From Hyphococcus sp. (GTDB lineage: Bacteria > Pseudomonadota > Alphaproteobacteria > Caulobacterales > Parvularculaceae), in the NCBI GenBank assembly GCA_028289605.1, contig JANQON010000001.1, forward strand, positions 124,001 to 188,000: a stretch of 64,000 nucleotides of DNA, given 5' to 3'. The notes beneath the pieces are model-generated. The model made no database searches, was not told where the DNA came from, and saw only the letters and a program-made list of their open reading frames with translations. Positions 4,229-57,822 of the stretch are shown piece by piece. Each line of letters starts with the position of its first letter. The stretch's first letter is position 1. The position numbers and the translations under genes were made by a program.

Positions 4229-5578
4229 ATGTCGGATTCTCCGCGTCATGGAGACACGATTTTCGCCCGGGCCAGCGGCGCCGGAAAGGCGGGCGTCGCC
4301 GTATTCCGGCTGTCGGGCCCCGATTCGCACAGCATCATCCGAGATTTAATTGGTAAACGGATTAAAGCAAGAGAAGCGGTTTTTGCTGCGGTTCGAGACC
4401 CTGCGACGGCGTCGCTGATCGATCGCGGCCTGGCCATACTTTTTGAAGGTCCCGCCAGCTTCACAGGCGAAGACGTCGCTGAGCTCCATCTCCATGGCAG
4501 CCGCGCCGTTGAGGCGTCCCTTTATGAGACGCTCGGCAGCCTCGGCGCCCGCCCCGCCGAGGCCGGAGAGTTCACCTTGCGGGCGTTGAAGAACGGCAAG
4601 CTGGATCTGGCCCAGGTCGAGGCGCTGGCCGATCTTATCGATGCCGAAACGAACCAGCAGAGAATGCAGGCTTTGGGTCAGCTCGACGGTCGGCTGTCGG
4701 CGGCGGCCGAAGGCTGGCGACATCAGCTCTTGGCGATCTTGGCGCCGCTGGAAGCCGATATCGACTTCCCCGATGAGGGCGGCGTGCCGGCCGCCGTCGC
4801 CGCCCGGGCGGGTCCGGAAATCGAAAAGCTTAAAGCGGCGTTAACTGCGTTTCTTCTCGATTCAGGACGTGCACGGAGGATCCGCGAGGGCGTTTCGATC
4901 GCCGTGGTAGGGCCACCCAACGCCGGGAAGTCATCTCTGGTCAACGCCCTCGCCGGCGCCGACGTCGCCATCGTCTCCGATCAGCCCGGAACGACGAGGG
5001 ACATCGTTGAGGTGCGCCTCGACCTTGGCGGGGTGGTCGCGACGGTGGCCGACACCGCTGGCCTGAGAGAGGCCGCCGGCGACGCGATTGAGGCGGAAGG
5101 TATGGCCAGGGCGCGCGCCAGGGCCGCGTCGGCGGATATTCGCATTCTGGTGCTTGATCCGTCTGCGGATGTTTCACGTGAAACACTGTCGGCCCTACGC
5201 AAAGGCGATTTCCTCATCTGGTCGAAGGCTGATCTCGGCGTGACCCCGCAGGATGTGCCAGTTCCGGACGGGGTGACCGGGATGGCTGTTTCATCCCGGC
5301 GCAAAGACGGGCTCAATGCGCTGATCGCCGGTCTTACCGCCGGCGTTTCACGTGAAACAGCCGCCGGGGAGCCCGCCCTCACCCGGGCGCGTCACGTGCG
5401 CGCCGTGGAGGACGCGCTCGCGGCTTTGGAGCGCGCAGAGGCGCATGTGGAGATCGCGCCCGAACTCGCCGCTGAAGACGTCCGCCTCGCGGCCAGAGCG
5501 CTCGGCGCCATCACCGGCGCTGTCGGGGTCGAAGATGTGCTTGGTGAGATCTTTTCCAGCTTTTGTATTGGCAAGTAG
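4229..5578 (+). CDS. mnmE: tRNA modification GTPase MnmE (TrmE)
   Basis: A 449-residue tRNA-modifying GTPase that works with MnmG to build the cmnm5 group on wobble uridine 34, using a methylene-tetrahydrofolate unit. The N-terminal folate-binding domain begins DTIFARASGAGKAGVAVFRL. The G domain shows the P-loop GPPNAGKSS at 228-236, G2 PGTTRD at 253-258 and G3 DTAG at 275-278. G4 reads SKAD rather than the usual NKxD. The C-terminus is the invariant CIGK with the catalytic cysteine. Two parS sites lie inside the gene and are read as VSRET. mnmG lies less than 1 kb downstream on the same strand. Confidence 0.97.
   Translation: MSDSPRHGDTIFARASGAGKAGVAVFRLSGPDSHSIIRDLIGKRIKAREAVFAAVRDPATASLIDRGLAILFEGPASFTGEDVAELHLHGSRAVEASLYETLGSLGARPAEAGEFTLRALKNGKLDLAQVEALADLIDAETNQQRMQALGQLDGRLSAAAEGWRHQLLAILAPLEADIDFPDEGGVPAAVAARAGPEIEKLKAALTAFLLDSGRARRIREGVSIAVVGPPNAGKSSLVNALAGADVAIVSDQPGTTRDIVEVRLDLGGVVATVADTAGLREAAGDAIEAEGMARARARAASADIRILVLDPSADVSRETLSALRKGDFLIWSKADLGVTPQDVPVPDGVTGMAVSSRRKDGLNALIAGLTAGVSRETAAGEPALTRARHVRAVEDALAALERAEAHVEIAPELAAEDVRLAARALGAITGAVGVEDVLGEIFSSFCIGK
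4830..4844. promoter_or_regulatory. Intragenic CtrA-like box (TTAA-N7-TTAA) in mnmE
   Basis: The sequence TTAAAGCGGCGTTAA matches TTAA-N7-TTAA exactly, followed by C as in TTAAC. It is inside the coding sequence and no start codon lies just downstream, so chance or codon use is a real possibility. It lies about 330 bases from the nearest parS site. Confidence 0.25.
5170..5185. other. parS centromere site 1
   Basis: TGTTTCACGTGAAACA, a perfect 16-base palindrome identical to the consensus bound by chromosomal ParB. It lies inside mnmE and is read there as D-V-S-R-E-T. parB is 4.5 kb downstream. Confidence 0.93.
5344..5359. other. parS centromere site 2
   Basis: CGTTTCACGTGAAACA, matching the parS consensus at 15 of 16 positions (first base C). 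It lies inside mnmE, 174 bases after site 1, and is read in the same frame as G-V-S-R-E-T. Confidence 0.9.
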
Positions 5579-6305: not shown

Positions 6306-8201
6306 ATGAGCGCTCAAAACACATATGATGTGATTGTTATCGGCGGCGGGCACGCCGGCTGCGAAGCGGCGGCGGCGGCCGCACGGGCCGGCGCGCGCAC
6401 GGCGCTCGTCACGCATCGCGTCGATACGATTGGAGAGATGTCCTGCAATCCTGCGATCGGCGGTCTCGGCAAGGGCCATCTGGTCCGTGAGATCGACGCC
6501 CTGGACGGGCTGATGGGTCGGGTCATCGACCAGGCCGGCATTCAGTTCAGGATGCTGAACCGCTCCAAAGGCCCCGCCGTGCGGGGGCCGCGGGCCCAGG
6601 CGGACCGGGCGCTCTACCGCGAGGGCATGCAGCGATTGCTTCGCGCCTGTGACGGGTTGGAAATCCTGGAAGGCGGCGTGGAAGACGTCGTTGTTTCACG
6701 TGGAACAATCTCCGGCGTTTTGCTCGCCGACGGGTCGGAGATCTCTGCGGCGGCGGTGGTGCTGACCACGGGAACTTTCCTCAAGGGCATGATCCATATC
6801 GGCGACAAGCGCATCCCGGCAGGCCGCGCCAATTCAAGAGCCGCCGATAAGACCTGGGGCGGAATCGAAGCCCCGGCCCTCAATCTGTCAGATCGGCTGT
6901 ACGCCTTGGGGCTGAAAATGGGCCGCCTGAAAACCGGTACGCCGGCGCGGCTGGATGGACGGACGATCGCCTGGGATCGCCTGGAAATGCAGCCGGCGGA
7001 CGACAAGCCCGTCCCGTTTTCGTTCCTGACGGAGCGCATAGAGGTTCCCCAAGTCGCCTGCGGAATCACCCATACCAACGCAGCCACGCACCGGATCATT
7101 GAGGACAATATTGGCAAATCCGCCGTCTACGGTGGCGCCATCGCCGGCCGGGGCCCCAGATATTGTCCGTCCATCGAGGACAAGGTCGTCCGCTTCGCCG
7201 AGCGCGAGAACCATCAGATCTTTCTCGAACCTGAAGGCCTCGATGACCACACGGTGTATCCGAACGGGATTTCGACCTCTTTGCCGGAGGATGTGCAGGC
7301 GGCGTTCCTGAAAACCATTCCTGCTTTGGAGACCGCCAAGGTCGTCCGGTACGGCTATGCGATCGAATATGACTACGTCGATCCACGCGGATTGAGCCAC
7401 GGGCTGGAAACCACCGCCCTCCCCGGGCTTTTCCTCGCCGGTCAGATCAACGGCACCACCGGGTATGAGGAAGCGGCGGCGCAAGGGCTGATGGCAGGCG
7501 TGAACGCCGCGCGACGGGCGCTCGGCGGCGAGCCTTTTACCCTCGACCGCAGCGAGGCCTATATCGGCGTGCTCATCGACGATCTGGTGACTCACGGGGT
7601 CAGCGAACCCTATCGCATGTTCACCAGTCGGGCCGAATACCGGCTCACCCTGCGCGCCGACAATGCGGACCAACGCCTGACCCCGGTCGGATTGGCGGCT
7701 GGGATCGTCGGCCCCGAAAGAGCGGCTGCGTTCCACCGGAAACAATCGGCGCTGGAATCTGCGCGGGCCTGGGCGTCGGATACGTCGATCACGCCCAACG
7801 AAGCCGAAAAATTCGGCATTAGGGTTAACCGGGACGGTCGGCGCAGGTCGGTCGTTAACCTTCTTTCCCTGCCTGGCGTCGATCGAGCGGCGCTGTCGCG
7901 GATCTGGCCCGAGCTCGCCGAGATGGCGGACGCCGTCGCGGAGCAGATCGAATTTGATGCGCTATACGCCGGGTATCTTGATCGTCAGCAGGCGGACATT
8001 ATTGCATTCAAGAAGGATGAGTCGCTGCGCCTGCCGGGCGACATCGATTACGCGGCCATACCCGGCCTCTCCAACGAAGTGCGATCAAAGCTCATCGACG
8101 CGCGGCCGGCGACCCTGGGTCAGGCCGGCCGTATCGAGGGGGTGACGCCGGCCGCCTTGGCGTTGCTGCTGGCCTGGATCAAGAAACGCGCAGCCGGTTA
8201 G
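6306..8201 (+). CDS. mnmG: tRNA uridine-5-carboxymethylaminomethyl(34) synthase MnmG (GidA)
   Basis: A 631-residue FAD enzyme that partners MnmE in modifying wobble uridine 34. The dinucleotide-binding loop GGGHAG is at 13-18, followed by the GidA signatures [20 protein letters not shown] and [11 protein letters not shown], then [20 protein letters not shown] and [15 protein letters not shown]. The C-terminal helical domain that contacts MnmE is complete and length is typical. The ATG at 6306 is chosen because [18 protein letters not shown] is the normal start; an upstream frame to 6252 adds non-conserved residues. A parS site lies inside at 6692. rsmG follows directly. Confidence 0.97.
6692..6707. 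other. parS centromere site 3
   Basis: TGTTTCACGTGGAACA, matching the parS palindrome except for one G in the right arm, the variant also seen in other bacteria. It lies inside mnmG and is read V-S-R-G-T, in the same frame relation as the other sites. Confidence 0.9.
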
Positions 8202-8246
8202 CCTGACTTGTCCCAGCGCCCTCTTCAGCAAGCAACGAAGCAAGCC

Positions 8247-24764: not shown

Positions 24765-24779
24765 TTAACGCGCTGTTAA
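24765..24779 (+). promoter_or_regulatory. CtrA box upstream of fliQ
   Basis: TTAACGCGCTGTTAA matches TTAA-N7-TTAA exactly, 67 bases before the fliQ ATG, with a further TTAAC half-site at about 24798. The fliQ promoter is a classical CtrA target in Caulobacter, so this is a strong candidate. Confirmation needs binding data. Confidence 0.75.
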
Positions 24780-25122: not shown

Positions 25123-25184
25123 ACGCGGATGCGCGCGCGCGAACAGTTTGCATGCGTCGGTGAAAACCGGGGGCCGAGATTGTG

Positions 25185-25955
25185 ATGACGTTCAGTCTGA
25201 GCGCCCTGCCGGTAGACGCATTTTTGCTGATAGCCGTGTTTGCCCGTGTCGGCGCGCTGTTCATGACGGCGCCGGCGCTGGGCGATTTCACCTTGTCGCC
25301 GCGGGTTCGGCTCGCTGCGGCGCTGGCGGTGACCGCCGCGCTCGCTCCCGTGGCGGCGCCGATGTTTCCCGACTGGACGCGCAACGCGACGCTCGGCGTC
25401 ATGACGGCGGTATTGCTCGGCGAAGTTCTGGTAGGCGTCTTTTTGGGCCTCGCAGCGAGGGTTGTGATGGCTGCGCTGAACGTCGCCGGTCAGATCATTG
25501 CGTTTCAGATGGGCCTCTCGCTAGCCCAGATATTTGATCCGACCCAAGAACTTCAAGGCGCAATCATTGGCGGATTTCTGGCGGTGCTGGCGACAACCAT
25601 GATCTTCGCCACGGACCTGCACCACATGATGTTGGCGGCCCTCGCGGATTCATATGTGCTCATGTCGCCCGGCGCCTTGCCGCGGTTCGGCGACATGTCC
25701 GCTCTCATGATTGACGCCCTGTCGAACTCGTTCTCTTTGGGCCTTCGTCTGGCGGCGCCGTTCGTGCTCTTCGGCCTCGTCTTTTATGTGGGCGCCGGCG
25801 TGCTTAATCGCCTGATGCCGCAGGCGCAGGTGTTTTTCATGCTGATGCCCGCGAATATTCTGCTGGGCGTGTTACTCCTGATGCTGACGACAGGCCTTAT
25901 GATGACGCTTTTCCTTGAGCGCTTCGAAGCGTTTCTGGCGCAATTTCTGAGCTAG
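25185..25955 (+). CDS. fliR: Flagellar export gate protein FliR
   Basis: A 256-residue inner-membrane protein with about six hydrophobic helices. Markers include FARVGALFMTAPALGDFTLSPRVRLAAALAVTAAL in outline, ILLGEVLVGVFLGLAARVV-like sequence, IAFQMGLSLAQIFDP, and LFGLVFYVGAGVLNRLMPQAQVFFMLMPANILLG. The ATG at 25185 is preferred; the GTG immediately before it (25182) would add one residue. flhB begins 6 bases after its stop. Confidence 0.94.
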   Translation: MTFSLSALPVDAFLLIAVFARVGALFMTAPALGDFTLSPRVRLAAALAVTAALAPVAAPMFPDWTRNATLGVMTAVLLGEVLVGVFLGLAARVVMAALNVAGQIIAFQMGLSLAQIFDPTQELQGAIIGGFLAVLATTMIFATDLHHMMLAALADSYVLMSPGALPRFGDMSALMIDALSNSFSLGLRLAAPFVLFGLVFYVGAGVLNRLMPQAQVFFMLMPANILLGVLLLMLTTGLMMTLFLERFEAFLAQFLS

Positions 25956-25961
25956 AGGGCG

Positions 25962-27050
25962 ATGGCTGACCAACCGGACAAGTCCCAGCGCACCGAAGAG
26001 CCGACGCCGAAGCGCCTCGCCGACGCCCGCAAGAAAGGCGATGCGCCCAAGAGCCAGGAGGCGATCGCCGCGGTGATGCTCGCCGCCGGGGCGCTGGCGC
26101 TGTGGATGCTGGCGGGCGCGGCCGCCGCCGCCGTGACGGAGTTGGGCGCCGTTTTTATCGACCGTCCGCACCAGATCGCCGTCGACGGGCCGGCGCTGCA
26201 ACGCTTGTGGATGAGCGTTTCGGTGAAGCTGGCTGCTGCGCTGGGGTTGATCGGGGTTGTCATGGTGGCCGCAGCGGTGCTCGCCAACGCCGGTCAGGCG
26301 CGCCCTGTGTTCACCACCGAGCGGATGAAACCGCAGTTGTCCAAAATCTCGCCGATCGCCGGTTTCCAGCGCGTATTCGGTCCCTCGGGTCTTTTCAATT
26401 TCGCCAAGGGCGTCGGCAAGATCGTTATTGTCAGCGCGCTTTTGTTTTTTGCGTTGTGGCCAGACCGGGCGCTGCTGGCGACATCTTTGACGGCGGACCC
26501 CGGCGCGCTTCTCGATATGATCAAGACACTGACATTGAAGCTTGTCGGACTGACGGTTGTCGCCATGATCGTCATCGCCGGTCTCGACTACGCGTTCCAG
26601 CGATACTCCTGGAAAAAGCGGCTACGGATGACCAAAGACGAAATCCGTCGTGAGCTGAAGGAAACTGAAGGCGACCCGCAGATCAAGGCGCGCCTGCGGC
26701 AGCTCCGCGAAAGCCGCATGCGCAAGCGAATGGTCGCCGCTGTAAAAGACGCAACCGTGCTGATCATGAACCCGACTCACTATGCGGTGGCGCTTGACTA
26801 TGAAATGGGCGACGAAGCCGCGCCAACATGTCTCGCCAAAGGCGTTGACGACTTAGCGCTGCGCATGCGCGACGCGGCTCAAGAGCATGGCGTGCCGGTC
26901 GTCGAGAACCCGCCCCTCGCTCGCGCGCTCTATGCTTCAGTGGACATTGACGAAGAAATCCCGCTCGAACACTATGAAGCCGTCGCGCAAGTCATTGGGT
27001 TTATTCTGAAAAAGGCGAATGACGCCGGGCGCCGCGACGGTCGCCGCTAA
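25962..27050 (+). CDS. flhB: Flagellar export switch protein FlhB
   Basis: A 362-residue protein with four membrane helices and a cytoplasmic tail. The N-terminus reads KSQRTEEPTPKRLADARKKGD, a hallmark. The self-cleavage site NPTH is at 270-273 in IMNPTHYAVAL, which controls the switch from rod/hook to filament export. The tail has PVVENPPLARALYASVDIDEEIPLEHYEAVAQVIGFIL in outline. Its stop overlaps the stop of the convergent PaaX-like gene by 4 bases. Confidence 0.96.
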   Translation: MADQPDKSQRTEEPTPKRLADARKKGDAPKSQEAIAAVMLAAGALALWMLAGAAAAAVTELGAVFIDRPHQIAVDGPALQRLWMSVSVKLAAALGLIGVVMVAAAVLANAGQARPVFTTERMKPQLSKISPIAGFQRVFGPSGLFNFAKGVGKIVIVSALLFFALWPDRALLATSLTADPGALLDMIKTLTLKLVGLTVVAMIVIAGLDYAFQRYSWKKRLRMTKDEIRRELKETEGDPQIKARLRQLRESRMRKRMVAAVKDATVLIMNPTHYAVALDYEMGDEAAPTCLAKGVDDLALRMRDAAQEHGVPVVENPPLARALYASVDIDEEIPLEHYEAVAQVIGFILKKANDAGRRDGRR

Positions 27051-28957: not shown

Positions 28958-31672
28958 GTGAGTGCACCCCATAACGACCGACACGCGGAAAAGGCCGCCG
29001 AAGAAATCGCCAGTGCGGCCATGCAGGCCTCAGACTCCGCCGGGCAGGAAGCCCCGCGCCCCCCCACGCCCGATGAAATCGTGCGCATGATGGACGAAGA
29101 AGCGGCCAAGCGCGGTCGGAAAACCGAAGACACCACGGTTCGACGCGATTCTCCGTCGTCAAACGTGGCTTCTTTCTGGCTTCTGTGGGGGTTCATTTTC
29201 GCCGGCCTCGGCGCTGTCGGGTATGTCATTCTGGCGGCGCGCGAAACCGGCGGGCCCGGCCTTTTGATCGCCGGCGGCGTCGCCCTGTTGGTGGCGCTCT
29301 TTGTCGCCGCCGCCGCGGCGCGAATGTTTTCGCCGGTTTTGCTCGCCGGAGCGATGCTGCAAAGGGCGAGCGGCAAGGGCGCGTCAGAGGCCGCGGAGCT
29401 CGCCGGCGCGGAAATTCTCGGCGCGCTGGGCCTGGCGGATCGGGTGCTGGATGCTGACCCCGACGCGCGCCTTGTGACCCGGCGAGACGGGGTCGTCACA
29501 TACGCCAATCGCGCCTACTTCACGCTTGCAAAAGAGGCCGGCGTCATGGGGCCTGCAGGTTTGCCGCCGCGCATCGACCGATTGTTCGCTCAGCAAGGCG
29601 CGGAAGCGACCAAAGTGTTTCGGCTTTGCCGCGCCGCCAAAAGCGGCGAAGAGGCGGAAGAAACAATTTATCAGGTCATGGGTCTCGCCGGCGGCGGCAA
29701 GCGCCGCCGTTTCGCCGTCACGGTTTCGCCGATCCGCGGTTCCGATGAGCATGTCGCCTGGCGCCTCGCGGAACAGCCGGTCGAAGAAGACAAACACGAT
29801 GCGCTGGCGTCGGCGTATGCGGACTTTCCCTCGCCGGTGCTCGCGGTTGAAAAATCGGGACAGATCGCCTGGGCGAACGCCGCCGCGCGCGAAATGCTGG
29901 GCGCGGATCGCGGCGCCTTGCGGCACGTAGACGATGTCGTGTTGGGCGAAACCGGCGATCTTGTGCGCGCGCTGTGGTCGGTCGATCGCGCTGAAAACCC
30001 GGTAACGGTCCGCCGTCGCGGCGCAGACCCCGTAGAGGCCTCTTTGATCGCATTCCGGCGCGGCGGCGTAGGAGAAGGGTTTGTCTGCGTTGAACTGCGC
30101 ATGGAAAAAGAAGTGGAAGGCGAAGAAGTTTCGCTCTCCGGCGATATTTCGGAGTCGCCGTTCGGGATCGCGATCATAGACGGCGACATCAATCGCGACG
30201 GACGCGTCGTGGAAGCCAACAAAGCGTTCACCGACGTATTCGACGCCAAGAAAAAGAACGCGCCGCTGGCGAAGGTGTTCGCCGCTTCGACGCTGGAAGA
30301 ACTCGCGGCGGAAGCCCGGAAGAAGCCGCGCAGCGGCGCGGCGCCCATCGGCGTCGAAGCGCGCGTGGGAGACGGGGCTGAGGCGCGCACCTTCGCCCTT
30401 TTCCCGCGTCCGGTTAAGCGGCGACGCGGGTCCTACGGGCAGCGCAAGACATTGCTGTACTCGGTCGACATTTCGGACCGCAAGCGCATGGAAGAAGATT
30501 ATGCGCAGGACCAGAAACTGCGCGGGATCGGCGAGTTGGCTTCGAAAGTCGCCCATGACTTTAACAACTATCTGCAAGTCGTGCTCGGTCATTGCGAGCG
30601 CTTGATGCTAAAGCATCCCGCCGGCGATCCGGCGTATCAGGAGCTTGTCCAGATTCGCGAAAACGCCCAGCGCGCGGCGAATACGACAAAACAGTTGCTG
30701 GCTTTTTCGCGCAAACAGACATTGAAACGCGAAGTTTTGTCGATCACGGAAGTGTTGCGGGACTTTTCGCGTTTCCTGACCCGCGCCATCGGTGAGAAAG
30801 TGCGACTCGACCTTGTTAACGGGCGCGCGCTCCCGCCGATCAAGGTCGACAAATACCAACTCGAAACGGCGATCATGAACCTTGCCGTCAATGCGCGGGA
30901 CGCAATGGCGCCCGCGGGCGGCAAGCTAACAATCCGTACACAACGGATTCCGGCCGAAGAGATCCCCGACCTTAAACTGGCTGCGCTCGACGATGTTGAT
31001 CATGTCCTGATCGAGGTCGCCGACACGGGTCCAGGCGTACCGGAAGATATCGCAGCGAAAATTTTTGATCCCTTTTTCACGACTAAGGATTCCGGCAAAG
31101 GAACCGGGCTCGGGCTTTCGACCGTTTACGGGGTCATCCGACAGATGGGCGGCGCCATCGTCCTGCATAGCGAGCCCGGCCAAGGGGCGGCGTTCCGAAT
31201 CTATTTGCCGGCTCATGACGAGGCGCTTGAGCCGGAAGACGACGCTGTATCGGCCCGGCCGACCGAACGCGAGCCTGCGGATCTGACCGGCGCGGGGCGC
31301 ATCCTTGTCGTTGAAGATGAGGATTCGGTCCGGACGTTCGTTATCGCGACGCTTCAGGATTGCGGTTACGAAATCACCGCCGCCGAAGACGGAGAAGACG
31401 CGCTTGAGATCATGGAAGACGACGGCCCGGACTTCGATCTGGTGATCTCCGACGTGATGATGAATGTGCTCGACGGACCGACCTTTATCGCCAAGGCCCG
31501 CGATCAGTTCGCGCTAAAGTCGAAAGTGATTTTCATGTCTGCTTACGCCGAAGCAGCGGTGCGCGACCAGCTCGACTCAATAGAAGGCGCAGGGTATATC
31601 CAGAAACCCTTCACGGTTAAGGGGTTAGCCGGGCTTGTGAAACAGACGCTTTATCCTGATACTGACGACTAG
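28958..31672 (+). CDS. cckA: Hybrid sensor histidine kinase CckA
   Basis: A 904-residue inner-membrane hybrid kinase. An unusually long polar N-terminus (about 65 residues) precedes two membrane helices (about 68-115). PAS-like segments follow near 170-250, 280-370 and 385-510. HisKA has H533 in [15 protein letters not shown], and the ATPase has [23 protein letters not shown] and [13 protein letters not shown]. The receiver begins near 780, with D832 in [12 protein letters not shown]. In this class CckA passes phosphate via ChpT to CtrA and CpdR. Start is GTG at 28958 after AGGAAAG. No clpP partner is adjacent. Confidence 0.93.
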
Positions 31673-34229: not shown

Positions 34230-35609
34230 GTGAGAACGCTGACACAGCGCCAGAGCCTGATTGTATTCGCACTTGGCCTCGCCGCCGCTGTTGCGGCGGC
34301 GGTCATAGTGTTTGGCGGCGGCCTTACGCCGGCGTTTAAACGGACCTTCGATCTCGACGCTTACGCTCAGCCAACCCCGGTATTCCGGGTCACTGACTTC
34401 TCCGCCCTTCCCGATTGGCGCCTCGACAGCGTCGACGCCGCGTTCCCCGCCTTTTTGTTGTCCTGCGAAAAGCTGATTGCGAAGCCGGATGACGCGCCTG
34501 CAAGCACCCAGGAAAATTTGGGCGCTGACTATGGGAGCTTCTCAATCGCAGGGCCCGCGGCCGACTGGAAGCCGGCGTGTCGCGCGGGGCAAGAGCTTGA
34601 CCGCTCCAATTACAGCGATGGGGACGCTTGGCGCGGTGTTGTCCGGTTGTTTTTTGAAACGCACTTTCGCCCCGTAGAGGTCGCCGGCAAGTATGTTCCT
34701 CGTGACGACGGGCCCGCTCGCGGCCGGGCGCCGATGACAGAGAACCTGGGCGTGTTCACCGGTTATTTTGAGCCGGTTTACGAAGCGCGCCGCGCGCCCA
34801 TCGGCCGCTTTACAGCGCCGCTTTATTCGCGGCCAGATGACTTGGTTGACGTCAACCTGGGGTCCTTCAGACAGGACCTGGCCGGCGCGCGCGTCGCCGG
34901 GCGGCTGGAGGGCTCGCGTCTCGTTCCGTATGCGGATAGGAAAGAGATCAACGGCGGGGCGCTTCAGGGCGACGCCGATGTCCTGGCGTATCTGGATCCC
35001 AATGACCTCTTTTTTCTGCAAATCCAGGGTTCCGGGCGTCTCGTTTTCAGCAATGGCGAGGTAGAACGGGTCGGATATCACGGCGCCAACGGCCGTCCGT
35101 ATACGGCGATCGGAAAAGTGCTTGTTGACCGCGGGGCCATGAGCCTTGCTGAAGCATCCATGCAGTCAATTCGCGCTTGGTTGGACAACGCGTCGCCGGA
35201 AGAGGCGCAGGCCCTGCGAGAAGCCAACCCGTCCTATGTCTTTTTCAGGCGACTGGACGGGCCGGGTGACGCAGAGGGGTTGTCCGATGACGAAGGGCCG
35301 TTGGGCGCCCAAGGCGTCGCCTTGACGTCAGAGCGCAGTCTCGCGGTGGATCTTCGTTATCACCCCCTTGGCGCGCCGGTCTATGTCGATATTGAACCGG
35401 TTGAGGCCGTTGGCCCGCGGCCGATCAGAATGTTGATGGTCGCGCAGGACACGGGAGGCGCCATACGCGGGCCGGTGCGGGGCGATGTTTACTGGGGCTC
35501 AGGCCCCGACGCCGGCGACAGGGCCGGCGCTATGAACGCCAAGGGGCGCCTCTATCTGCTGCTGCCAAGAGCGCGGGCTGATGCGCTCGCCGCGCGGCAG
35601 GCGCCGTGA
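34230..35609 (+). CDS. mltA: Membrane-bound lytic murein transglycosylase A
   Basis: A 459-residue periplasmic transglycosylase cleaving peptidoglycan with formation of anhydro-muramic ends. The N-terminus is a hydrophobic anchor or signal at about 9-29, without a lipobox. MltA markers are GVFTGYFEPVYEARR, DVLAYLDPNDLFFLQIQGSGRL and the 3D-domain AQDTGGAIRGPVRGDVYWGSG with the catalytic aspartates. Start is GTG at 34230. The stop overlaps the start of the Smr gene by 4 bases. Confidence 0.93.
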   Translation: MRTLTQRQSLIVFALGLAAAVAAAVIVFGGGLTPAFKRTFDLDAYAQPTPVFRVTDFSALPDWRLDSVDAAFPAFLLSCEKLIAKPDDAPASTQENLGADYGSFSIAGPAADWKPACRAGQELDRSNYSDGDAWRGVVRLFFETHFRPVEVAGKYVPRDDGPARGRAPMTENLGVFTGYFEPVYEARRAPIGRFTAPLYSRPDDLVDVNLGSFRQDLAGARVAGRLEGSRLVPYADRKEINGGALQGDADVLAYLDPNDLFFLQIQGSGRLVFSNGEVERVGYHGANGRPYTAIGKVLVDRGAMSLAEASMQSIRAWLDNASPEEAQALREANPSYVFFRRLDGPGDAEGLSDDEGPLGAQGVALTSERSLAVDLRYHPLGAPVYVDIEPVEAVGPRPIRMLMVAQDTGGAIRGPVRGDVYWGSGPDAGDRAGAMNAKGRLYLLLPRARADALAARQAP

Positions 35610-36151
35610 CCCGCGGCCGCGATCTGACACGGCGCGAACTGGGTCTTTGGCGACGCGTCACCAAGGACGTTTCTCCGATGCGTCCGCACGCTGTTTCGGC
35701 GCCGAAAAGCGAGTCGCCGACCGGCGTGGCGCAGCGCGCCGGGTCTCGACATGGGGATGCGGCGATGCCGCGGGCGGGACGCCGCCCCGCCCCGAGGCCC
35801 GCCCATGAAAACGTCTTTTCCTCGGGCGATCCAAAAGCTGACAAAAAAGTCGCCCGCGGGCGCATGACAATTGATGCGACGCTTGATCTTCACGGTCATA
35901 CCCAGGCGAGCGCGCATGTCGCGCTGCGCCGGTTTATTATCGCCGCCCATGGGCGCGGCGACCGTTGCGTCCTCGTCATCACCGGGAAAGGAAATCCGGC
36001 CGCGCCTGATCGCGGCGTGCTGCGCGCCCGGTTCCGCGACTGGATTGAAGAAGAAGACCTACGGGCGCGGATCGCCCGCGCCGCTGCCGCGCACCAACGC
36101 CACGGCGGAGACGGCGCATACTACGTATTCTTGAAACGCGGCGCGCATTAG
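35606..36151 (+). CDS. Smr/MutS2 C-terminal domain protein
   Basis: A 181-residue protein with a C-terminal Smr domain: LDLHGHTQASA at 93-103 and VLVITGKGN at 122-130. The N-terminal 80 residues are basic and low in conservation. Smr domains are often nucleases acting on DNA junctions or RNA, but the precise substrate of this stand-alone form is unknown. GTG start at 35606 overlaps mltA. Its stop overlaps the stop of the convergent 631-residue gene by 4 bases. Confidence 0.9.
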   Translation: MTRGRDLTRRELGLWRRVTKDVSPMRPHAVSAPKSESPTGVAQRAGSRHGDAAMPRAGRRPAPRPAHENVFSSGDPKADKKVARGRMTIDATLDLHGHTQASAHVALRRFIIAAHGRGDRCVLVITGKGNPAAPDRGVLRARFRDWIEEEDLRARIARAAAAHQRHGGDGAYYVFLKRGAH

Positions 36152-38043
36152 CCGCCGAGTACGGTTTTCCAGAGTATGAACGCTACGGCGAAAGCCGGCG
36201 CCAGATAAAAGAAAACCAGGCGCGAGATGCGGATAAACATGGTTTCGGTGAAATCCGAGGCCCATGCGCCCACCGCTTCGCTCCACCACCGGCGCGGCTT
36301 GTGCTTCGGCAACTGCGCCGACGGCATGCGCGCGTCCGAAGCGCGCTTGGCGCTCATGTCGTACGGCATCGCCGCGAGCACCCGCACGCCGCGGTTCTTC
36401 CAGCGCTGGAATGCTTTTTTCATCGCGCCGTTGACGACCGATCCGCGCAGTCGGCGCGTCAGCATCGCGAACGGACCGTAGCTGAAGTCAGCAGGATCGA
36501 ATTCGATATCGAGGGCGATGTCCGCCGGCGCGCCGGTATTGGAATCCTCGTCCATGCGCACCACGGCGTGACGCACGCCGTAATTACGCAGGAAGTTTTC
36601 AACATCGCCGATGGCGGCCGCCGATGAATCGCGCCGGAAAGCCATTATCACGCGCACGCCGCGCCGCCCTTCGCTGCGCACTGACAGCAGCACCCACGCG
36701 GCCAGGGCCGCCGCGCCGCCGAGCGCCATGGCGCCCGCCGCCGTCAGGGACGACATCCACGTCAACGAGGCCGGCAGTTCAACAACAGACGTTGACGTTC
36801 CGCTGATCCCGTAGACGCCGAAAATGATCAACAAGGCCGCCAGCGCGCCTGAGGCGTATCCCATCATCTGCATGAACCCGGCGCCGATGGAGCCGCCCGG
36901 CGCCGCAACCGCATGAAGGCGTTTCGCCCAGTAGTTCGTGCGCGCGTCAGTGGTGCGGTACTTGTCTTCGAATAAAGAGTGGTCGGGATTGTTCTCGACG
37001 ACCATGAAGCGCGTCTTTGCGGGCGGCGTATCATCGAAATTGTGCTCGATGATAACGTAGTCGGAAGACCGCATCGCGACCTCGTAAGGCAGCACCATCG
37101 CGAACAGCTTGGATTGCTGCGCTTCTGAGCCGATGCTGGAGAAAAAGCGGGTCTCTCCGCTGATCGGGTCATAGGTCGTATTCGTTGTCCGATTTGAGTT
37201 TGTGGCGGAGCGGGCAAGCCGCGCAAGTTCGCGATGGGGCTCGACCATCTGTGCGATTTCCTGCACTTCGACGCCAATTGCGCGCAGTCCGTCCAGTTTC
37301 GATTTCGACCGTCGCGCCGCTTCCGGTCCTGCGAAAACCATATCGATCCGGTCACGGATTAACTTCTGGTCCGCCATGTCGATCGGCAGGCCGGCGCGCG
37401 GCATTTCTGCGTCGGCGCCGGCATGCGGTTCGTTGCCGCTGCTGGTGGAGTCCACCGCGCCCCAGGACTTGCGCAAACGCCTTTGAAGCGCCGAAAAACC
37501 GGTTCCCGGATGCGAAGACTGGATGATGTCGTAAAGCTGCGATTCATGCACCGCCAGACACAGATCGTCGGTCGCCTCAACCTGTTCAACGGCGCGCACG
37601 GTCACGAGGCTGGCGACGGCCCGCAACGCCTCAAAGTCGTACCCGGAATAGGGATTATAAAACGGCACAACCGCGAAATCGGCGGTCTGCTGTTTGACCG
37701 CCATGAGCGATTGTTCTTTAGTCCGGAGGGGCTGCGTTATCGCGTTGCCGTAATCGAACTTGTTGTTCTTGCTGGCTTCGTCGAATTCCCGTTCGAGCCG
37801 GGCGAACATGGCGGCGTAGCCGGCGTCCGGAACCGTTCCCGTTTTTCTTGCCCGCTGCAGGAATTTGCCGGTCGCCTGGTACCCGAAGCCCCACTCCTCC
37901 CCGGTGAAGGCGATGCGCGGACTCGGCTTTCCGCTGCGGTCGGCCCGCTCTTCCGCCGGCGCATCCGCAAAGCGCGGATCTGCGTCATCGGCGTATGCCA
38001 TCATGGATCGACGTTTGAAAAATCGCGGCGCGCCGTCAGCCAT
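36148..38043 (-). CDS. Membrane protein with prephenate-dehydratase-like N-terminal domain
   Basis: A 631-residue protein. Residues 43-57 (RIAFTGEEWGFGYQA) resemble the prephenate dehydratase substrate-binding opening; 122-135 (DFAVVPFYNPYSGYD) resembles its AVVPIENSxxG element; 163-181 has a SHP-containing helix; and 344-350 (TRFMVVE) resembles its C-terminal TRF strand. The parts are separated by unusual insertions. Two membrane helices follow at about 390-412 and 427-455, then a basic globular region with the motif RDSSAAAIGDVENFLRNYGV, and a last helix at about 605-627. No ACT-type tail is evident. A CtrA box is 39 bases upstream. Catalytic activity cannot be assumed. Confidence 0.6.
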   Translation of the reverse strand: MADGAPRFFKRRSMMAYADDADPRFADAPAEERADRSGKPSPRIAFTGEEWGFGYQATGKFLQRARKTGTVPDAGYAAMFARLEREFDEASKNNKFDYGNAITQPLRTKEQSLMAVKQQTADFAVVPFYNPYSGYDFEALRAVASLVTVRAVEQVEATDDLCLAVHESQLYDIIQSSHPGTGFSALQRRLRKSWGAVDSTSSGNEPHAGADAEMPRAGLPIDMADQKLIRDRIDMVFAGPEAARRSKSKLDGLRAIGVEVQEIAQMVEPHRELARLARSATNSNRTTNTTYDPISGETRFFSSIGSEAQQSKLFAMVLPYEVAMRSSDYVIIEHNFDDTPPAKTRFMVVENNPDHSLFEDKYRTTDARTNYWAKRLHAVAAPGGSIGAGFMQMMGYASGALAALLIIFGVYGISGTSTSVVELPASLTWMSSLTAAGAMALGGAAALAAWVLLSVRSEGRRGVRVIMAFRRDSSAAAIGDVENFLRNYGVRHAVVRMDEDSNTGAPADIALDIEFDPADFSYGPFAMLTRRLRGSVVNGAMKKAFQRWKNRGVRVLAAMPYDMSAKRASDARMPSAQLPKHKPRRWWSEAVGAWASDFTETMFIRISRLVFFYLAPAFAVAFILWKTVLGG

Positions 38044-38081
38044 TGCAAAGGCCCCACTGAAACTCCCTCAAGGGCTTAAGA

Positions 38082-38096
38082 TTAACCTGCTATTAA
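38082..38096 (-). promoter_or_regulatory. CtrA box upstream of 631-residue membrane protein gene
   Basis: TTAACCTGCTATTAA matches TTAA-N7-TTAA exactly, followed by C. A third TTAA lies at 38076. It is 39-53 bases upstream of the start at 38043, a normal promoter position on the minus strand. Confidence 0.72.
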
Positions 38097-38231
38097 CCCT
38101 AGCGGAAGCCCACTCTTGGCGCGGCGGGGTCGTTCTCCGCCGGGTGCGCGCTCCATGCCACAGCGCCGGACATCCTGCGTAAAGCCCTGAAATTGCGTCG
38201 TTTTTCAGCACCGGAAGGCGCGAAGCCGGGG

Positions 38232-39539
38232 TCAGAGAATGTATTTGGACAGATCCGCGTTCCGGCTGATCGCGCCGAGGCGCTCTTCCACATAGGCGGC
38301 GTCGATGGAAATGGTCTCGCCGGCGCGGTCCGCCGCGGTGAAGGAAATGTCGTCGAGGACGGTTTCCATAGTGGTCGCCAAACGCCGGGCCCCGATGTTT
38401 TCAACACCCGCATTGACGGCGGCGGCGGCGTCGGCGAGCGCGTCCGCGGCGTCGTCGGTGAATGAGATCGTCACGCCTTCGGTTTCGAGCAGCGCGCAAT
38501 ATTGCTTGATCAGGCTCGCCTCCGGCTCAACCAAAATTCGGCGCAAGTCGTCCCGGGACAAGGCGTCAAGCTCAACCCGGATCGGCAGTCGCCCCTGCAG
38601 TTCCGGCAGCAGGTCAGAGGGCTTGGACAAATGAAACGCCCCGGACGCGATAAAGAGAATGTGGTCGGTTTTCACCGCGCCGTATTTCGTCGCGACAGTC
38701 GCGCCTTCGATCAACGGCAACAGATCGCGCTGCACGCCTTCCCGGGAAACATCGGCGGAGCCGCGTTCTGCGTTGCGCGCGATTTTGTCGATTTCGTCGA
38801 GGAATACGATGCCGTCATTTTGCGCCAGATCGACGGCGTCGCGCGCCAGCGCGTCGTCATCAACAAGATTGTCGGACTCTTCAGCCAGTAATGGTTCGTA
38901 TGCGTCTTTTACCTTCAGGCGCTTTGTCGATCTTGGCCCCTGAAAAGCCTTGCCGAGCATATCTGACAGATTGATCATGCTCATCTGTGAGCCGGGAAGC
39001 CCCGGGATCTCAAAATTGGCGCCGCCGCCCGGCGTGTCGCGGAGTTCGAGCTCGACTTCACGGTCGTCGAGGTCGCCGTCCCGGAGCATTTTTCTGAAAC
39101 GTTCGCGGGTCGCCTCACTCCCCTCCCCGCCGATCACTGCTTCAAGCACGCGCTCTTCGGCGGCGGCCTGGGCTGAGACTTTCACTTCTTCGCGTTTCTT
39201 GTCGCGCACCAGGGAAACGGCGATCTCGACCAGATCGCGAACGATCGATTCAACGTCCCTGCCAACATAACCGACTTCGGTAAATTTCGTCGCCTCCACT
39301 TTGAGAAACGGCGCGCCGGCGAGACGCGCAAGGCGCCGTGAGATTTCCGTTTTGCCGACCCCGGTCGGCCCGATCATCAGAATGTTCTTGGGCGTAATTT
39401 CGTCCTGAAGAGCGCCCTCCACGCGGCGCCGACGCCACCGGTTGCGCAGCGCGATGGCGACGGCGCGTTTGGCGGCGTTCTGGCCGACAATAAAACGATC
39501 GAGTTCGGAAACGATTTCTCGCGGAGAAAATTCTGTCAT
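38232..39539 (-). CDS. hslU: HslUV protease ATPase subunit HslU
   Basis: A 435-residue AAA+ unfoldase. The Walker A GPTGVGKT is at 58-65, Walker B is [11 protein letters not shown], and the I domain lies between. The C-terminus ends in ADLSKYIL, the segment that docks into HslV. Sequence [18 protein letters not shown] and [21 protein letters not shown] are typical. hslV is 34 bases upstream on the same strand, so hslV-hslU is an operon. Confidence 0.97.
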
Positions 39540-57807: not shown

Positions 57808-57822
57808 TTAACGGCGCGTTAA
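57808..57822 (-). promoter_or_regulatory. CtrA box upstream of TonB receptor gene
   Basis: TTAACGGCGCGTTAA matches TTAA-N7-TTAA exactly, within two overlapping CGTTAACG palindromes (57806-57813 and 57817-57824). It is about 198 bases upstream of the receptor start and 23 bases after the slipin stop. The distance weakens it as a promoter element for the receptor. Confidence 0.5.

Follow-up and report, generated by a model that had tools for sequence, protein, structure and literature searches.

The prephenate dehydratase (PDT) and ACT domains are textbook ligand-binding modules of amino-acid synthesis, and they follow one another in PheA, for which several structures are available (Protein Data Bank, PDB, entries 3mwb, 2qmw, 2qmx and 6vh5). 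GqqA of Komagataeibacter (PDB 7am0), a PDT relative of 281 amino acids, has N-acyl-homoserine-lactone acylase activity and complements an E. coli pheA mutant; in its dimer, each monomer's ACT domain pairs with that of the other, the serine and threonine of the cleft are S17 and T174, and docking puts S17 at the ligand (PMC8192741). The TRF triad is described as important for substrate binding and catalysis in another study (PMC10845154). On the regulatory side, chromatin immunoprecipitation sequencing (ChIP-seq) in Hyphomonas yielded the CtrA consensus TTAA-N7-TTAAC (PMC7200025). Here, we describe a gene of Hyphococcus sp. (Parvularculaceae) located in a stretch of 64,000 nucleotides, hereafter the window (assembly GCA_028289605.1, contig JANQON010000001.1, positions 124,001 to 188,000). 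It encodes a 631-residue protein that may well be a membrane-tethered pseudo-PheA, binding a metabolite or a partner and acting as a regulator, with its dose tied to the cell cycle by CtrA.

A sequence-only reading of this DNA had proposed a 631-residue gene with partial PDT motifs, and the open reading frame (ORF) is indeed present, with all three motifs located in its translation: GEEWGFGYQA at residues 48-57, AVVPFYNPYSG at 124-134 and TRFMVVE at 344-350. The N-terminal region is homologous to prephenate dehydratase. The Pfam PDT family (PF00800) matches residues 100-172 with 26.3 bits (E 7.3e-06), above the curated cut-off of 25.2, and a profile-profile match to PheA extends over residues 43-359 (E 1.2e-10); the protein falls far under the cut-off of the NCBIfam PheA equivalog (21.7 bits vs. 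219). Foldseek and VIA matches for the predicted structure are headed by PDT chains, so the PDT fold suspected from the motifs is also the predicted one. The gene is no chance ORF, because its sequence, place and promoter are conserved. Purifying selection is indicated by ratios of nonsynonymous to synonymous substitution rates (dN/dS) of 0.103, 0.090 and 0.132 overall against three close orthologues. For the comparisons below, a profile (A2) was built from 23 diverse members out of 55 proteins extracted. Rows dropped from the analysis were L003 and L004, which duplicate the gene of L002, L056, which duplicates L041, loci of the genome search that recur among those of the contig scan, and L055, which had no tblastn match at 1e-3. 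Alignments A6 and A7 carry a start-codon artefact in the first column of some rows, and A8 was used for folding instead.

The active site was examined by pairing PheA columns through the profile alignment, with counts over the 23 members and 19 PheA sequences and with PheA numbering taken from the L057 fragment. In PheA the compared columns are identical in 18-19 of the 19 sequences, with one exception (S 12, T 7). Outside TRF, nine of 12 positions are changed in the 631-residue protein, namely, from PheA to this protein, Ser12 to Gly54, Glu51 to Tyr129, Ser53 to Pro131, Arg57 to Tyr135, Ser100 to Ala238, His101 to Gly239, Gln107 to Arg245, Arg109 to Lys247 and Asn167 to Ala342. The three kept are Gly48, Asn130 and Gly134, of which Asn130, the asparagine of the ENS motif, varies among the 23 members (N 8, S 5, D 5, A 3, H 1, Q 1). 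The TRF triad itself is intact (T344, R345, F346), and across the members its residues are found in 20 (T), 15 (R) and 22 (F) sequences. Furthermore, conservation is higher in the motif blocks, which were hand-chosen once the alignment had been seen, than elsewhere in the PDT domain, a level reached by 128/5000 random placements in the close set and 11/5000 in the diverse set. Since these blocks are more constrained and the cleft residues are changed, the cleft looks rewritten yet still selected, as for a new ligand or partner. Because the conserved active-site positions are largely replaced, we do not class the protein as a prephenate dehydratase, and it probably no longer is one; it would work more as a ligand-binding module carried by a membrane anchor. 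The earlier doubt about its enzymatic activity is thereby strengthened. Mean pairwise identity among the 23 sequences is 0.754 in the PDT part, 0.755 in the ACT-like part, 0.471 in the hairpin, 0.536 at the N-terminus and 0.600 in the C-terminal tail.

Hydropathy gives three hydrophobic helices (residues 390-408, 435-453 and 606-624), in agreement with the two central and one terminal membrane helix that had been read from the translation. The C-terminal helix is detected in 20/23 diverse members (all except L042, L044 and L045), both hairpin helices are detected in 8/23, and a single one is seen in L043; the C-terminal anchor is probably the older trait and the hairpin the later one. Both soluble domains should be cytoplasmic, because no signal peptide is visible by eye and two helices lie between them. 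In the full-length model, the fold match to PheA structures runs along residues 42-561 approximately, including the C-terminal basic domain. Place and topology make it most likely that this domain represents the ACT domain of PheA; the label of an unrecognised domain holds for its sequence, which has no match to ACT, and not for its position and predicted topology, which fit. The architecture had been considered unfamiliar; as modelled, the layout would be that of PheA, PDT followed by ACT, in the form of a membrane protein with a hairpin between the domains and a helix at the C-terminus, rather than a PDT domain plus something new.

The gene is confined to one family in the genomes searched. 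A scan of genome contigs recovered 23 loci labelled Marinicaulis, Parvularcula, Parvularculaceae or Alphaproteobacteria, with best-segment identities of 62-82%, and Marinicaulis flavus SY-3-19 has an orthologue (L021). Profile A2 matches 44 of the 249 genomes of the order, all of them in Parvularculaceae (44/50 family genomes), and 0/199 genomes in the other families of the order. Class-wide, 5/337 genomes match, the own genome strongly and four others weakly; the weak matches, in open frames of 279-327 amino acids and over short stretches only, were rejected as homologues, being probably ordinary PheA. The own genome also holds one separate, intact PheA above the family cut-off (C16:191867), about 30 kb from the gene. 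Additionally, a shorter paralogue of 414 amino acids is present in the own genome (L002:745-1986; C7 near 7012-8223). It has one C-terminal membrane helix, carries CRRFLL in place of TRF, adjoins a MazG gene and lacks a CtrA box in the part of the locus that was read; the matches listed in the profile search of the order include no further full second copy.

In loci that reach far enough, the gene sits between hslU and an Smr-domain gene, with mltA next, and the hslU/smr flanks hold in 9/9 divergent members (L041-L045, L047-L049 and L053). The three members of genus g2 checked with longer stretches keep the same his-hsl neighbourhood, not directly beside hslU: the gene lies 1.5 kb (L126) or 3.4 kb (L127) beyond hslU, or about 1.5 kb from hisA-type matches (L125), and smr was not found in these g2 stretches. 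Three genomes of other families were examined; in L140 (L140:4118-5955) the hslU and smr matches are 8 bases apart with no gene between them, likely an empty site, and in L139 and L141 smr was not found. Because hslU and smr abut in L140, the gene was probably added to the hslU-smr site in this lineage, with this one genome as the outgroup basis.

The promoter carries an exact CtrA-type box, TTAATAGCAGGTTAA, 39-53 bases upstream of the start codon, where the sequence-only reading had placed it. The last 90 bases of 43 distinct promoters were searched for TTAA-N7-TTAA, which is exact in 27, has one mismatch in seven and has two or more in nine; mononucleotide shuffles contained an exact box in 20/56000 cases. 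Conservation in relatives, the lack of which had been named as refuting, is borne out by exact boxes in 25 of the 28 close promoters, the misses being L035 (one mismatch), L019 (two) and L024, whose start region is masked with N but which was still scored as a miss. The half-site columns are identical in 26-27/27 promoters, spacer columns 4, 5 and 6 in 24, 18 and 19/27, and columns 7-10 in 24-27/27; the divergent exact boxes of L041 and L043 have other spacers. The window as a whole contains four exact boxes, vs. 0.05 expected from shuffles, and the own genome encodes CtrA (424.2 bits to NF045991, RespRegCtrARhodob; cut-off 350).

Other features of the window and promoter touch the same subject. 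Upstream of the gene in close orthologues, at -16 to -8 from the box start, lies CGGGCTTTC, nearly invariant with 24 to 27/27 in all columns but one (22); it may serve as a -35 element, as an arm of the hslU terminator, or as both. In Caulobacter, CtrA classically targets flagellar genes. One further exact box (24765-24779) stands between a divergent gene that matches no Pfam family (start 24696, about 70 bases away) and FliR/FlhB-family export genes (25182-27050, about 400 bases away). Another (57808-57822) lies between a band-7 (SPFH) gene and a same-strand TonB-receptor gene, upstream of the latter, and the last (4830-4844) falls inside an mnmE-like gene. The window also encodes a histidine kinase of 904 amino acids with PAS and receiver domains (28958-31672), which looks like CckA.

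In the mechanism we propose, an old prephenate dehydratase duplicate would have given up catalysis and retained the PDT cleft together with, most likely, the ACT module. The C-terminal helix, joined in this lineage by the hairpin between the domains, would tether the protein to the inner membrane. The re-specified cleft would most likely bind a small metabolite, perhaps an aromatic or amino-acid-like compound, and a membrane-located protein would receive the ligand state through the ACT-like domain. CtrA would probably couple the dose of pseudo-PheA to the cell cycle. The ACT ancestry of the C-terminal domain, the loss of catalysis, the binding of a ligand, the topology and control by CtrA are the parts that we infer; the sensor function, aromatic ligand and cell-cycle control that had been suggested are plausible for this putative receptor. 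A wider claim, which we regard as doubtful, is that the protein serves throughout the family as a membrane receptor derived from a phenylalanine-synthesis enzyme, linking aromatic amino-acid status to the CtrA programme. Neither a counterpart of such a receptor, nor a description of a membrane-anchored PDT or of this Parvularculaceae gene, was found among the open-licence PubMed Central papers listed, by title and abstract start. If true, such a receptor would cleanly exemplify how an enzyme is recruited into a receptor or scaffold role, and nutrient status might reach the alphaproteobacterial cell cycle by this route.

Several results weigh against the pseudo-PheA reading. Confidence in the full-length model is modest (pLDDT 60.2, pTM 0.40, large rmsds), and the putative ACT ancestry of the C-terminal domain finds no confirmation in sequence, since comparison with PheA ACT gave E 0.12 over 10 columns and subset comparisons gave E 0.071 to 0.31. 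Folded alone, this domain has no Foldseek match at E<=0.001, and its Z scores, to various ferredoxin-like and PII-like proteins, are middling, with a maximum of 7.1. Six of the 50 family genomes have no match, with completeness of 76% (G161), 78% (G573), 89% (G578), 94% (G564), 99% (G124) and 100% (G114). G114 and G124 have hslU with no member in the 18 kb around it; G564 is also without a full hslU match, and there the region itself may be missing. The kept TRF triad could mean residual catalysis. In the promoter, the right half of the box may be part of a -10 element, TTAATCT serving both roles, and the shared ancestry of the promoters makes box conservation weaker proof than the counts suggest. 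Moreover, there is no genome-wide enrichment of the box (35 sites vs. 37 for the reversed control); as it is no commoner than the control, its mere presence means little, and the weight falls on its conservation in orthologues.

These promoter results bear directly on the alternative that survives best, though it is unlikely: that there is no CtrA site, the right half of the box being a sigma-70-type -10 element (TTAATCT) and CGGGCTTTC an hslU terminator arm or a -35 element. It would account for TTAATCT occurring without the left half in L042 and L044, for the conservation of CGGGCTTTC being close to that of the box, and for the genome-wide counts. It fits poorly with the near-invariance of both TTAA halves at an exact 7-base spacing in the close promoters, with the variation of spacer columns 4-6 (although columns 7-10 are nearly invariant), with the other spacers of L041 and L043, with the presence of a CtrA gene, and with the match to the Hyphomonas ChIP-seq consensus at all but its last base (PMC7200025). 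Quite unlikely is a second alternative, in which the cell's own PheA has the protein as a regulatory subunit that pairs with it ACT to ACT and either draws phenylalanine synthesis towards the membrane or adjusts its feedback inhibition. The own genome encodes both PheA and pseudo-PheA, conservation of the ACT-like domain matches that of the PDT domain, and such pairing is reported for the GqqA dimer (PMC8192741). Nevertheless, no sequence similarity between the ACT-like domain and PheA ACT could be detected, and PheA elsewhere needs no such partner, as the PDT family occurs in 14/14 control genomes and the 631-residue protein in one family only. Least probable is that the protein has remained an enzyme, comparable to GqqA, and acts as a membrane-bound lyase or hydrolase on another substrate. 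The kept TRF and the constrained motif blocks would suit this, and GqqA shows that new activities can arise on the PDT fold (PMC8192741); however, the cleft has lost most of its polar residues, the ENS-motif asparagine varies, and GqqA S17 probably corresponds to Gly54 here, by motif reading and not by residue-level alignment.

The features of the locus, with the conserved neighbours of the gene labelled from their translations, are collected in Table 1.

Table 1. Coordinates in the window of the pseudo-PheA candidate, its parts, its promoter box and its neighbours.
Feature	Position	Strand	Basis
Whole gene, 631 amino acids, degenerate PheA-like membrane protein	36148..38043	-	ATG-start ORF, Pfam match, conservation in family
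PDT-like domain with insertions, ~residues 41-360	36964..37923	-	Pfam, profile-profile match, fold match
TRF triad, residues 344-346, kept	37006..37014	-	alignment
Membrane hairpin, ~residues 385-458 (helices 390-408, 435-453)	36670..36891	-	hydropathy, model
ACT-like domain, ~residues 460-562, predicted beta-alpha-beta-beta-alpha-beta	36358..36666	-	models; full-length fold alignments pass through
C-terminal membrane helix, residues 606-624	36172..36228	-	hydropathy
CtrA-type box TTAATAGCAGGTTAA	38082..38096	-	exact, -53 to -39 from ATG; conserved in orthologues
hslU (label from translation), conserved upstream neighbour	38232..39539	-	synteny
Smr-domain gene (label from translation), conserved convergent neighbour	35606..36151	+	synteny

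Compared with the described systems, the pseudo-PheA candidate resembles PheA of the PDT+ACT type in domain order, in the fold predicted for most of its length and in the kept TRF triad. Unlike PheA, it carries a membrane hairpin that separates the two domains and a further membrane helix at the C-terminus, its PDT part contains insertions and has lost most of the compared positions outside TRF, and its C-terminal domain is not recognisable as ACT by sequence; the own genome, furthermore, keeps a separate PheA beside it. GqqA has no membrane helices in the part of its published description that was available (PMC8192741), vs. three here, and with respect to its cleft pair the counterpart of Ser17 is probably Gly54 on the same motif reading, while Thr344 is kept. 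The promoter box resembles the Hyphomonas CtrA consensus in being TTAA-N7-TTAA upstream of a start codon and conserved in orthologues, and differs from it in the next base, which is T here and C there.
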